From Bradyrhizobium sp. Rc3b (GTDB lineage Bacteria > Pseudomonadota > Alphaproteobacteria > Rhizobiales > Xanthobacteraceae), in contig NZ_FOUS01000008.1 in NCBI RefSeq assembly GCF_900114915.1, positions 310,001 to 374,000 on the forward strand: DNA of 64,000 nucleotides, given 5' to 3'. The notes under the pieces are model-generated. The model saw only the letters and a program-made list of their open reading frames with translations. It searched no databases and was not told where the DNA came from. The translations under genes and the position numbers were made by a program. Positions 60,440-63,793 of the stretch are shown piece by piece. Within the stretch, counting starts at the first letter, position 1. Each line of letters starts with the position of its first letter.

Positions 60440-61018
60440 ATGACGTCGCCCGAGGATTTTTCACGGCTGCAATCCATCATGAGCCAGACGGTCAAGGCGC
60501 ACTGGAAGGCTTTCCTGTTCGAGGGCATCCTGCTCGCAATTCTCGGCGTCGCGGCGCTGATCCTGCCGCCGCTGGCAAGTCTTGCGATCACGATCTTCCT
60601 CGGCTGGATGTTCTTGATCAGCGGCATTGGCGGGCTGATCGTGACCTATTGGGCGCGCAGCACGCCGGGCTTCTGGTGGTCGCTGATCTCGGCTGCGCTC
60701 GCCGTGCTCGCCGGCATGCTGCTGCTGGCCCGGCCGATGCAGGCCGTGCTGACGCTGACCATCGTGGTCGGCGCCTACTTCCTGGCCGAGGGCGTCGCCA
60801 CCATCATGTACGCACTGGAGCACCGCCGCGAGCTCAGCGGCCGCTGGTCGTGGCTGCTGATCTCGGGCCTTGTCGACATCGCGATCTCCTTCATGGTGAT
60901 CACGGGACTGCCGAGCTCGGCGGAATGGGCCATCGGCGTCCTCGTCGGTATCAACCTCCTGTTCGGCGGCGCCAGCCTGATCGGCCTGGCGCTGGCGGCA
61001 CGCAACAGCAACACCTGA
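60440..61018 (+). CDS. HdeD-family acid-resistance membrane protein
   Basis: The 192-residue protein has about six membrane helices with the HdeD pattern (WKAFLFEGILLAILGVAALI, IFLGWMFLISGIGGLIV, GYFLAEGVATI-type segment and a final GVLVGINLLFGGASLIG). HdeD protects E. coli from acid at high density; related proteins are widespread with unclear roles. I start at the ATG at 60440. It is upstream of the DAHP synthase attenuator but separated by its own promoter region. Confidence 0.85.
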   Translation: MTSPEDFSRLQSIMSQTVKAHWKAFLFEGILLAILGVAALILPPLASLAITIFLGWMFLISGIGGLIVTYWARSTPGFWWSLISAALAVLAGMLLLARPMQAVLTLTIVVGAYFLAEGVATIMYALEHRRELSGRWSWLLISGLVDIAISFMVITGLPSSAEWAIGVLVGINLLFGGASLIGLALAARNSNT

Positions 61019-61086
61019 CCCGCCTCGTCACCTGCCGCGCCGATTGGGGGGTGACAATCCGCTGATGGCGCGCTATATGCCCTTCC

Positions 61087-61167
61087 ATGATCACCGTCGC
61101 CACCAGCTATTTTTGGTACTTTAGCTACGACAGCTCGCTGGCGGCAGGAGGATCGCGCTCAATCTGA
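61087..61167 (+). CDS. Aromatic-rich leader peptide of the DAHP synthase gene
   Basis: Read directly: the 26-codon frame MITVATSYFWYFSYDSSLAA ends GGSRSI then TGA. Seven codons in the stretch 61108-61128 are Tyr, Phe, Trp, Tyr, Phe, Ser, Tyr, i.e. six aromatic codons within seven. Such a peptide senses charged Phe, Tyr and Trp tRNAs by ribosome stalling. It lies directly before overlapping RNA hairpins and a terminator (see next entry). No ribosome binding site is strong, which is common for leader peptides. Confidence 0.85.
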   Translation: MITVATSYFWYFSYDSSLAAGGSRSI

Positions 61168-61216
61168 ATATTGAAGCAAACGTCCCAACAAGCCGCCAGA
61201 CCTGGCGGCTTTTTTA
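61099..61216 (+). promoter_or_regulatory. Transcription attenuator controlling the DAHP synthase gene
   Basis: Three overlapping pairings are visible. Segment 1, GCCACCAGC (61099-61107), pairs with segment 2, GCTGGCGGC (61137-61145), with one mismatch. Segment 2 (CTGGCGGC, 61138-61145) also pairs perfectly with segment 3, GCCGCCAG (61192-61199). Segment 3 pairs with segment 4, CTGGCGGCT (61202-61210), forming the terminator with the T run at 61210-61216. Stalling at the aromatic codons (61108-61128) would cover segment 1, free segment 2 and allow 2:3 antitermination. This is the classical attenuator logic. Confidence 0.85.
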
Positions 61217-61251
61217 TTGGCCGGCAGGTTCGAAACAAACAGGAGCCCGCC

Positions 61252-62337
61252 GTGCTGAGCACGACCGACGATCTTCGTATCCGCGAATTGAAAGAGCTGA
61301 GCACGCCGGAAGAGGTGATGCGGGAAGTCCCGCGCACGCTCACCGCGACGCGCGTCGTGATGGCGGCGCGCAACGCCATCCACGCCATCCTCAATGGCCA
61401 GGACGACCGCCTGCTGGTCGTGGTCGGCCCCTGCTCGGTGCATGACCCCAAGGCCGCGCTGGAATATGCCGAGCGCCTCGCGAGCTTGCGCGAAGAGCTC
61501 GCCGACCAGCTCGAAATCGTGATGCGGGTCTATTTCGAGAAGCCGCGCACCACAGTCGGCTGGAAGGGCCTGATCAACGATCCCGATCTGGATGGCAGCT
61601 TCGACATCAACAAGGGCCTGCGGCTGGCGCGCAACGTGCTGTCGGCGGTGAACAATCTCGGCCTGCCCGCCGGCACGGAATTCCTCGACATGACGACGCC
61701 GCAATACATCGCCGACCTCGTGTCCTGGGCCGCGATCGGCGCGCGCACGACCGAGAGCCAGATCCATCGCGAGCTGGCCTCGGGCCTGTCCTGCCCGGTC
61801 GGCTTCAAGAACGGCACCGACGGCAATGTGCGGATCGCGGCGGACGCCGTGAAGTCGGCCTCGCATCCGCATCACTTCATGGCGGTGACGAAGCTCGGCC
61901 GCTCGGCGATCGCCTCGACCGCGGGCAACGAGGACTGCCACATCATCCTGCGCGGCGGCAGCAAGCCGAACTATGACGCGGCAAGCGTCGCGGCCGCCTG
62001 CAACGAGCTGACCAAATCCGGGGTCGCGCCGCTGGTGATGGTGGATGCCAGTCACGCCAATTCGAGCAAGAAGCCCGAGAACCAGCCGCTGGTGGCGGCC
62101 GACATCGCCGGCCAGATCTCAGGCGGCGAAGGCCGCATCATGGGCGTGATGATCGAGAGCAACCTCGTTGCCGGCCGCCAGGACGTCGTGCCGGGCAAGC
62201 CGCTCACCTACGGCCAGAGCATCACCGACGGCTGCATCGATTGGCCGACTACGGCGACCGCGCTCGAGCAGCTCGCCGACGCGGTGGAAATCCGCCGCAA
62301 CGCCCGGCGCGCCGGACTGCAGGAGCGCTCGGCCTAG
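61252..62337 (+). CDS. aroG: 3-deoxy-7-phosphoheptulonate (DAHP) synthase, class I
   Basis: The enzyme condenses phosphoenolpyruvate and erythrose-4-phosphate in the first step of aromatic amino-acid synthesis. The 361-residue protein has VVVGPCSVHDPKAALEYAER near residue 60, KNGTDG and the late GRIMGVMIESNL, all of the class I (AroFGH) type. The start is a GTG at 61252 with AGGAG six bases upstream, after the attenuator; an upstream ATG at 61171 lies before the terminator hairpin and is not credible. The gene symbol is chosen by class; the feedback specificity (Phe, Tyr or Trp) is not readable. Confidence 0.92.
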   Translation: MLSTTDDLRIRELKELSTPEEVMREVPRTLTATRVVMAARNAIHAILNGQDDRLLVVVGPCSVHDPKAALEYAERLASLREELADQLEIVMRVYFEKPRTTVGWKGLINDPDLDGSFDINKGLRLARNVLSAVNNLGLPAGTEFLDMTTPQYIADLVSWAAIGARTTESQIHRELASGLSCPVGFKNGTDGNVRIAADAVKSASHPHHFMAVTKLGRSAIASTAGNEDCHIILRGGSKPNYDAASVAAACNELTKSGVAPLVMVDASHANSSKKPENQPLVAADIAGQISGGEGRIMGVMIESNLVAGRQDVVPGKPLTYGQSITDGCIDWPTTATALEQLADAVEIRRNARRAGLQERSA

Positions 62338-62698: not shown

Positions 62699-63793
62699 TC
62701 ACGTCTCGGGCGGATAGAGATGAACGTCGCCGCAATAGTCCACGATACGATAGCGCGTTTCGGCTTCCGCATCACCCGCATGGGGTGCGGTATTATGCGG
62801 CGCCAGGACGTAGCTCGGCCCCACCGGGGATTTGCCGGCGCCCCCGGGAATGTCGATGACATAGTCCGGCTGACATAGCCCTGACACCCGCCCGCGCAAC
62901 TGCCGCATCAACTCCTGCCCCTCCGCCAGCGTCGTGCGCAGATGCGCCGTGCCCGGCGCGAGGTCGCCGTGATGCAGATAATAGGGCTTGATCCGGCATT
63001 CGACGAAAGCTCGCATCAAATCCGACAGAGCGGCAATGTTGTCATTGACCCCGCGCAACAGCACGGACTGGCTCACCAGGGGAATTCCGGAATCGACGAG
63101 CCGCGCGCACGCGGCGCGCACCGGTCCCGTCAGTTCGCGCGCATGATTGGCATGCAGCGCCACCCAGGTGGCCGCGCCCTCGACCTTGAGCGCCGCAACC
63201 AACTCGTCGCTGATGCGCGCGGGATCGGCCACGGGCACGCGGGTGTGAAGGCGGATGATCTTGACGTGATCGATTGCCGCGAGTTCGGCCATGATCTCGC
63301 CCATCCGGCGCGGCGACAGCATCAGGGGATCGCCACCGGTCAGGATCACTTCCCAGATCTCGTGATGCGAACGGATGTAATCGATCGCCGCGCGATAGGC
63401 GCCGTCCGACAGCGCGCTGTCCTTGCCGGGGCCCACCATCTCGCGGCGGAAGCAGAAGCGGCAATAGACCGCGCAGACGTGAACGAGCTTGAACAGCACT
63501 CGATCGGGATAGCGATGCACGATCCCTGCGACCGGCGAGTGCGGATGATCGCCGATCGGATCGGCGTCCTCGCCCGGCTGCATCTCAAGCTCCGCGGCGC
63601 TCGGAACGAATTGCCGTGCGATGGGATCGTCGGGGTCGGATGTATCGATCAGTTCGACCAGCGCCGGCGTGATCGCCACAGCATAGCGTGCGGCAACGCG
63701 TTCGAGCGCCGGCAGCGCTGCTGCAGGCGCCAGACCTTCGGCGACGAGCTCAGCCGGCTCGCGCAAAGTGCGTGCAAGGTTCGTTTTCGTCAT
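62699..63793 (-). CDS. epmB: EF-P lysine 2,3-aminomutase EpmB
   Basis: The enzyme converts L-alpha-lysine to (R)-beta-lysine for attachment to elongation factor P. The 364-residue radical-SAM protein has the 4Fe-4S motif CAVYCRFC (Cys107, 111, 114), ILTGGDPLMLSP and the PLP lysine in GGAGKSPVGP (Lys321). It lacks the long C-terminal extension of lysine-catabolic KamA, so it is EpmB. Its start overlaps the stop of the upstream epmA by four bases, and this coupling supports the assignment. Confidence 0.9.
   Translation of the reverse strand: MTKTNLARTLREPAELVAEGLAPAAALPALERVAARYAVAITPALVELIDTSDPDDPIARQFVPSAAELEMQPGEDADPIGDHPHSPVAGIVHRYPDRVLFKLVHVCAVYCRFCFRREMVGPGKDSALSDGAYRAAIDYIRSHHEIWEVILTGGDPLMLSPRRMGEIMAELAAIDHVKIIRLHTRVPVADPARISDELVAALKVEGAATWVALHANHARELTGPVRAACARLVDSGIPLVSQSVLLRGVNDNIAALSDLMRAFVECRIKPYYLHHGDLAPGTAHLRTTLAEGQELMRQLRGRVSGLCQPDYVIDIPGGAGKSPVGPSYVLAPHNTAPHAGDAEAETRYRIVDYCGDVHLYPPET

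Follow-up and report, generated by a model that had tools for sequence, protein, structure and literature searches.

DAHP synthase supplies all three aromatic pathways. Phe codons are typical of classical phe leaders. That a single leader can sense more than one amino acid has a precedent in the E. coli ilv leader, and in E. coli trp attenuation segment 2 is masked by a ribosome that has reached the stop codon. The AroR leader of C. glutamicum reportedly goes back to Neshat et al. 2014, as cited in a review. As far as the excerpted literature goes, AroR, which precedes the DAHP synthase gene aroF and for which aromatic codons and ribosome stalling are described, is the closest described leader of a DAHP synthase gene (PMC11802643). 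The likeness to the locus reported here is that a leader peptide with aromatic codons controls, or in the present case would control, a DAHP synthase gene by ribosome stalling; the differences are that C. glutamicum is an actinobacterium and that its leader is given as Phe-Tyr-Phe, Trp being unmentioned in the excerpts of the source, and the two are likened by description and not by enzyme family or RNA. For the alphaproteobacteria, excerpts of the literature describe trpL of S. meliloti as a leaderless sORF belonging to the trp attenuator rnTrpL/peTrpL (PMC10117765), and report a trans function for peTrpL and a B. japonicum counterpart, Bja-peTrpL (PMC10117765, PMC7298713). In those excerpts the two trp systems resemble the aroG leader as alphaproteobacterial attenuators, with a leaderless trpL in S. 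meliloti, and differ from it in their consecutive Trp codons, in preceding trpE, and in the trans function reported for peTrpL, the like of which is not known for the aroG leader.

The window is the whole stretch of 64,000 nucleotides that was analysed, and the features described below lie on its forward strand unless stated otherwise. The aroG gene (61252-62337) encodes a type I (AroFGH) DAHP synthase of 361 aa with a GTG start (TIGR00034, 530.9 bits against a cut-off of 173.2). An earlier note, made from the sequence alone, had placed the true start at the GTG after the terminator, and this was borne out by the relatives: GTG is the start in 111/112 distinct Bradyrhizobium-type upstream regions, and a Shine-Dalgarno-like 4-mer, represented in the window by AGGAG at 61241-61245, is present in 112/112. 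The gene start to annotate for aroG is thereby settled as GTG 61252. Downstream of aroG, a KamA-family radical SAM protein (TIGR03822, lysine-2,3-aminomutase-like) is encoded on the reverse strand at 62702-63793. The genome also holds a type II DAHP synthase (PF01474; G000:C22:283650-284963, locus L230), near which no aromatic-dense short ORF was found; one weak candidate lies far upstream.

A leader peptide ORF precedes aroG at 61087-61167. As read directly from the sequence, its start is ATG 61087 and its stop is TGA 61165-61167; the predicted translation is a peptide of 26 aa, MITVATSYFWYFSYDSSLAAGGSRSI. Codons 8-14 of this ORF (61108-61128) are TAT TTT TGG TAC TTT AGC TAC, which give the control run Y F W Y F S Y, six of the seven being aromatic, as the earlier note had counted. 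When short frames with at least five aromatic codons in eight were collected from both strands of the window, two were found, and only one of them, the aroG leader, has a terminator within 130 nt downstream. The short ORF rich in codons for the end products of the pathway that is expected of an attenuator is therefore present.

The aromatic codons are conserved in relatives, as had been anticipated. In 68 distinct Bradyrhizobium-type leaders, Trp at window codon 10 and Phe at codon 12 are invariant (68/68 each), codon 9 is Phe in 48 and Tyr in 20, codon 14 is Tyr in 56, Phe in 9 and another residue in 3, codon 8 is aromatic in 42, and Asn replaces Tyr at codon 11 in one. Tyr and Phe are thus exchanged at the variable control positions, and the variation of the leader is codon-like, with in-frame changes of length alongside the Tyr/Phe exchange. 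Phe, Tyr and Trp occur together in the control run of 114/114 Bradyrhizobium-type, 48/49 other alphaproteobacterial and 9/9 xanthomonad distinct leaders, and in just 11/30 distinct betaproteobacterial leaders, the other 19 having Phe and Tyr without Trp; these groups, which were also used for the promoter, were assigned manually according to record titles and kinship labels.

Judged from this codon content, it is plausible that one RNA senses Phe, Tyr and Trp: all three residues recur throughout the Bradyrhizobium-type leaders and in nearly all other alphaproteobacterial ones, Tyr and Phe replace each other where the control run varies, and the enzyme feeds all three pathways. Attenuation could also be real and answer one or two aromatic amino acids only, most likely Phe or Trp, with the other codons being passengers or acting through the nascent peptide. 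The invariance of Trp and of one Phe codon, and the betaproteobacterial control runs that lack Trp, point in that direction, as does the Phe-Tyr-Phe leader AroR, which according to the excerpted account answers Phe and not Tyr (PMC11802643); we consider this narrower response a strong contender whose chances fall a little short of even.

The predicted promoter of the leader has a -35 element, GTGACA, at 61051-61056 and, after a 17-nt spacer, an extended -10 element, GCTATATG, at 61072-61079, in which the hexamer TATATG (61074-61079) carries a GC extension (GCTATA) and which ends 7 nt before the leader ATG. A -35/-10 pair whose end falls 4-10 nt ahead of the leader ATG was found in 107/112 distinct Bradyrhizobium-type upstream regions and in 0/2240 shuffles, in which the 33 nt immediately preceding the first aromatic codon stayed unshuffled. 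With a looser rule and full shuffling, the promoter was found in 114/114 Bradyrhizobium-type leaders against 3/2280 shuffles, and the looser rule found it in 46/49 other alphaproteobacterial leaders against 0/980 shuffles. The same rule detected this alphaproteobacterial type in 0/9 xanthomonad and 1/30 betaproteobacterial distinct leaders; among the xanthomonad leaders inspected, four have TATCAC or TATCAA at a distance of 7-8 nt from the ATG and lack a good -35 element. The predicted promoter type conserved in the alphaproteobacteria, GTGACA-N17-GCTATA ending 6-8 nt before the leader ATG, is new in this analysis. A map of B. japonicum transcription start sites gives GCTATA as the extended -10 of its 'motif III', and according to the excerpted text the GC extension was tested there (PMC4842269). 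A Shine-Dalgarno-like 4-mer stands before the leader in 5/112 distinct Bradyrhizobium-type upstream regions, in contrast to its presence before every aroG, and the window leader has none. Because the promoter ends about 7 nt before the ATG and a Shine-Dalgarno sequence is lacking, the alphaproteobacterial leader mRNA is predicted to be leaderless or nearly so, with a start at about 61086-61088, within about 2 nt of the ATG, and not near 61050 as had been proposed.

An intrinsic terminator is predicted before the first structural gene at 61190-61215, with its stem formed by 61190-61198 and 61203-61211 and its T run at 61210-61215. Segment 2, CTGGCGGC (61138-61145), which lies within the leader ORF and forms the 5' arm of the antiterminator, is complementary to segment 3, GCCGCCAG (61192-61199), at 8/8 positions, all Watson-Crick; segment 3 is common to the antiterminator and the terminator. 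The earlier note had drawn both of these pairings, with coordinates that hold to within a base or two, and had called its three pairings nested; they are instead mutually exclusive alternatives. Its third pairing, 61099-61107 with 61137-61145 (8/9 paired, with one A.C mismatch), is not supported by covariation. In an alignment, A1, of 48 leaders picked for diversity from 171 distinct leaders, it was paired in 56.0% of cells, no better than controls, its pairing being reached by 42/500 shuffles and its covariation score by 114/500, and a slide of +3 was better. Its place is taken by a longer predicted protector hairpin in the minimum free energy fold, in which segment 1 (61089-61102) pairs with 61139-61154.

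The full leader folds at -44.8 kcal/mol, compared with -33.6 +/- 3.4 kcal/mol for shuffles (z -3.26; 0/200 as low), and the minimum free energy fold of 61087-61214 contains this protector and the terminator. Positions 61130-61201, from which segments 1 and 4 are absent, fold into the 2:3 antiterminator (z -2.70; 0/200 shuffles as low). When segment 4 was kept and segment 1 removed, the fold was unremarkable (z -1.23; 22/200 shuffles as low) and its centroid was the antiterminator. Across the 171 distinct leaders, the predicted folds contained the terminator in 165 and an upstream-paired segment 2 in 161; once segment 1 was omitted and the RNA truncated ahead of segment 4, 170 were predicted to form the antiterminator. 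Complementarity within single GC-rich spacers is only mildly unusual: p <= 0.05 was obtained for 2:3 in 122/171 and for 1:2 in 48/171 leaders, and p <= 0.01 in 19/171 and 2/171, respectively.

In A1, segments 2 and 3 are paired in 85.4% of cells (slid versions at most 60.8%) with a covariation score of 0.084 (slid at most 0.044), and 0/500 shuffles were as high on either measure; the pair at column 80 is unpaired in 31/48 rows. Segments 3 and 4 are paired in 94.0% of cells, with 11 double-changed cells, all at one position, and again 0/500 shuffles were as high in pairing or score. The measures that best withstand relatedness, namely the number of doubly changed pairs and the number of further pair types, do not exceed the shuffles for either helix: for 2:3 they are 3 against a shuffle mean of 2.0 (126/500 as high) and 7 against 7.2 (363/500), and for 3:4 they are 1 against 1.0 (489/500) and 7 against 7.0 (488/500). 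Among 46 distinct segment triplets, Watson-Crick pairs numbered 295 for 2:3 (shuffle mean 272.8, maximum 287; 0/2000) and 319 for 3:4 (shuffle mean 278.9, maximum 295; 0/2000), counts that were probably lowered by visibly displaced anchoring in L058, L060, L161, L196 and L216. At two positions of 2:3, G-C is changed to A-U on both sides in the separate lineages L009/L010 and L092/L227, and segment 4 there keeps its G, for which a G.U pair is possible in the terminator; with segment 4 unchanged, these two-sided changes are explained by the 2:3 pairing and not by 3:4. L009 and L010 branch apart from other members of the family in the AroG tree. Since the core GGCGG/CCGCC hardly varies, only a small number of positions and events underlie the covariation. 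The compensatory changes that had been expected in the segments thus occur to some extent in 2:3 and 3:4 and are not supported for segment 1 as it was drawn, and the mutually exclusive 2:3 antiterminator expected of an attenuator is present, tempered by the conservative covariation counts.

Named relatives with 94-96% identity in AroG point to Bradyrhizobium as the genus, and AroG was found in 111/117 of its genomes. The leader was present in 110/110 same-genus upstream regions, G430 being left out on account of its fragmented gene, and the terminator was recognized in 109 of these by an automated finder and in the last one (L186) by eye. Across 229 aroG loci, with some genomes present twice in two collections, an aromatic-dense short ORF lies upstream in 214, that of L096 being doubtful, and the leader extends to betaproteobacterial and xanthomonad relatives. 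The 15 loci without such an ORF are from gammaproteobacteria, other betaproteobacteria and one Melainabacteria-labelled MAG, and include Pantoea, Vibrionaceae, an ectothiorhodospiraceal MAG, Methylotenera, Thauera, Azoarcus, Chitinimonas, Ferrovum and one betaproteobacterial MAG; one of the 15, L073, has only 49 nt of upstream sequence. By a stricter rule the leader was in range at 208/229 loci and was accompanied by a terminator according to the finder at 196/229. The finder misses loops of 10 or more and A/U-extended stems; of the 12 leaders that escaped it, all excluded from the 171 distinct leaders, 11 by eye have GCCGCC...GGCGGC followed by a T run, and L089, on a Chloroflexota-labelled MAG contig, has a hairpin that no T run follows. 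In a quick AroG tree built on 68 selected rows, of which 67 were counted (L096 omitted), at least 4 gains or losses of the leader are required.

Full-length AroG occurs in 39/297 Hyphomicrobiales genomes, a 40th match (G258) being an 80-residue stretch with an E-value of 7.9e-4. A covariance model of the leader, R1, matched 39/39 of these genomes, and part of this agreement is built in, because the 48 leaders used for R1 included some from the same genomes. Four more Hyphomicrobiales genomes were matched without aroG, three before tyrS and one (G181) in the terminator part only. Among 398 genomes of the phylum, 48 were matched by R1, 47 before aroG and one before pheST. AroFGH itself is commoner (225/398 genomes of the phylum at 1e-60), so the leader marks a subset of AroFGH genes: of the best 38 AroG matches (E <= 6.9e-154), 37 are accompanied by an R1 match, the exception being G781, and 10 more R1 matches lie below. 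The genome under study has one strong R1 site, before aroG, at 134 bits; a second copy of the leader was sought there, and the other 19 matches score 21.7 bits or less. Within the family, type I aroG is patchy (10/100 genomes, 4/47 genera), and the leader is attached to it in all ten, which suggests that aroG and the attenuator travel together.

All features except the codons and segment 2 would fit a plain terminator, and an HdeD-like ORF on the same strand ends upstream at 61018, so that the hairpin could be the terminator of that gene or a constitutive premature terminator, with the aromatic ORF incidental. This is very unlikely, given that the promoter conserved in 107/112 distinct upstream regions sits between the HdeD-like ORF and the leader, that leader and terminator accompany aroG in every Hyphomicrobiales genome with a full-length AroG (39/39) and across classes, and that two lineages show covariation between segments 2 and 3 with an unaltered segment 4.

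Rfam 15 was searched for known leader families, as the earlier note had suggested, and at gathering score none was found on the window leader, the window yielding three tRNAs only, or on 19 other leader-bearing loci (16 aroG, 3 tyrS). RF01859 (Phe_leader), which resembles the aroG leader in combining an aromatic leader peptide with a terminator, scored 25.9 bits where gathering requires 55, and the match spans just 61151-61218, which excludes the aromatic codons; RF00513 (Trp_leader), likewise a family of leader-peptide attenuators, scored 19.6 bits against 41. An enterobacterial pheST leader (L299:258-381), the leader peptide gene of which we take to be pheM, served as the positive control for R1; of 20 related loci it was the only one matched by an Rfam family, Phe_leader scoring 84.3 bits there. 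A ligand-sensing device of the riboswitch or T-box type with a chance ORF would suit the structured and conserved 5' region, but it is hardly credible when the leader stays below the gathering score of every Rfam family and the variation is codon-like. In a full-text literature search no account of this proteobacterial aroG leader was found; an earlier prediction is possible, the comparative study of proteobacterial attenuators by Vitreschak et al. 2004 being outside the scope of the search. For this reason the novelty of the aroG leader among ribosome-mediated attenuators of known type is provisional, and it is absent from Rfam 15 at threshold.

The aroG leader is very probably a ribosome-mediated transcription attenuator, and the interpretation given in the earlier note is supported. 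This reading builds on the observed anatomy and conservation of the leader, on the pairing of segment 3 with segments 2 and 4 and some covariation, and on the thermodynamic feasibility and the conserved promoter; stalling, termination and the response to amino acids would follow from them in the following way. Transcription would begin at the leader ATG or no more than about 2 nt away from it, and ribosomes would load on the leaderless mRNA. With an ample supply of charged Tyr-, Phe- and Trp-tRNA, the ribosome would move past the aromatic codons, segment 2 would be covered or held by segment 1, segment 3 would pair with segment 4, and RNA polymerase would halt at 61210-61215. In shortage, a ribosome stalled on the aromatic run would cover segment 1, segment 2 (61138-61145) would be free to pair with segment 3 (61192-61199), the terminator would not form, and aroG would be transcribed. 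The stop codon lies about 20 nt past segment 2 and 25 nt before segment 3. A ribosome that has reached the stop would therefore leave segment 2 unmasked, in contrast to the E. coli trp leader, and termination in plenty would probably depend on the protector or on the passage of the ribosome over segment 2, and not on one waiting at the stop.

A Tyr-rich leader (e.g. MIKTAATFVYFYYVTSIPAAA) was observed before tyrS in 5/297 Hyphomicrobiales genomes, all in one family, f41 (L282:332-397, L283:309-374 and L284:326-391; also L305 and L306), with a segment 2 and a terminator of the same kind as in the aroG leader. The gene is identified as tyrS by TIGR00234 in the three tested loci, and three of the five leaders went into the model that was used. 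Lacking Trp, this leader looks like a relative of the aroG leader that was put to a second use, and no such tyrS leader was found among the matches listed in the literature search. A more far-reaching proposal, to which we give a slim chance, would combine a leaderless 'OR gate' for three aromatic amino acids across the alphaproteobacteria with this aroG, action in trans by the RNA of about 125 nt (about 61087-61215) and the 26-aa peptide, as with rnTrpL and peTrpL in S. meliloti, and a Tyr-shifted re-use for tyrS in the one Hyphomicrobiales family.

As a very probable attenuator, the aroG leader would provide a control mechanism for the entry of carbon into the shikimate pathway in bradyrhizobia and in many other alpha- and betaproteobacteria. 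Its predicted leaderless layout would make it a clean natural system in which to study how ribosomes loading without a Shine-Dalgarno sequence stay abreast of RNA polymerase, and how one leader might weigh three amino acids.
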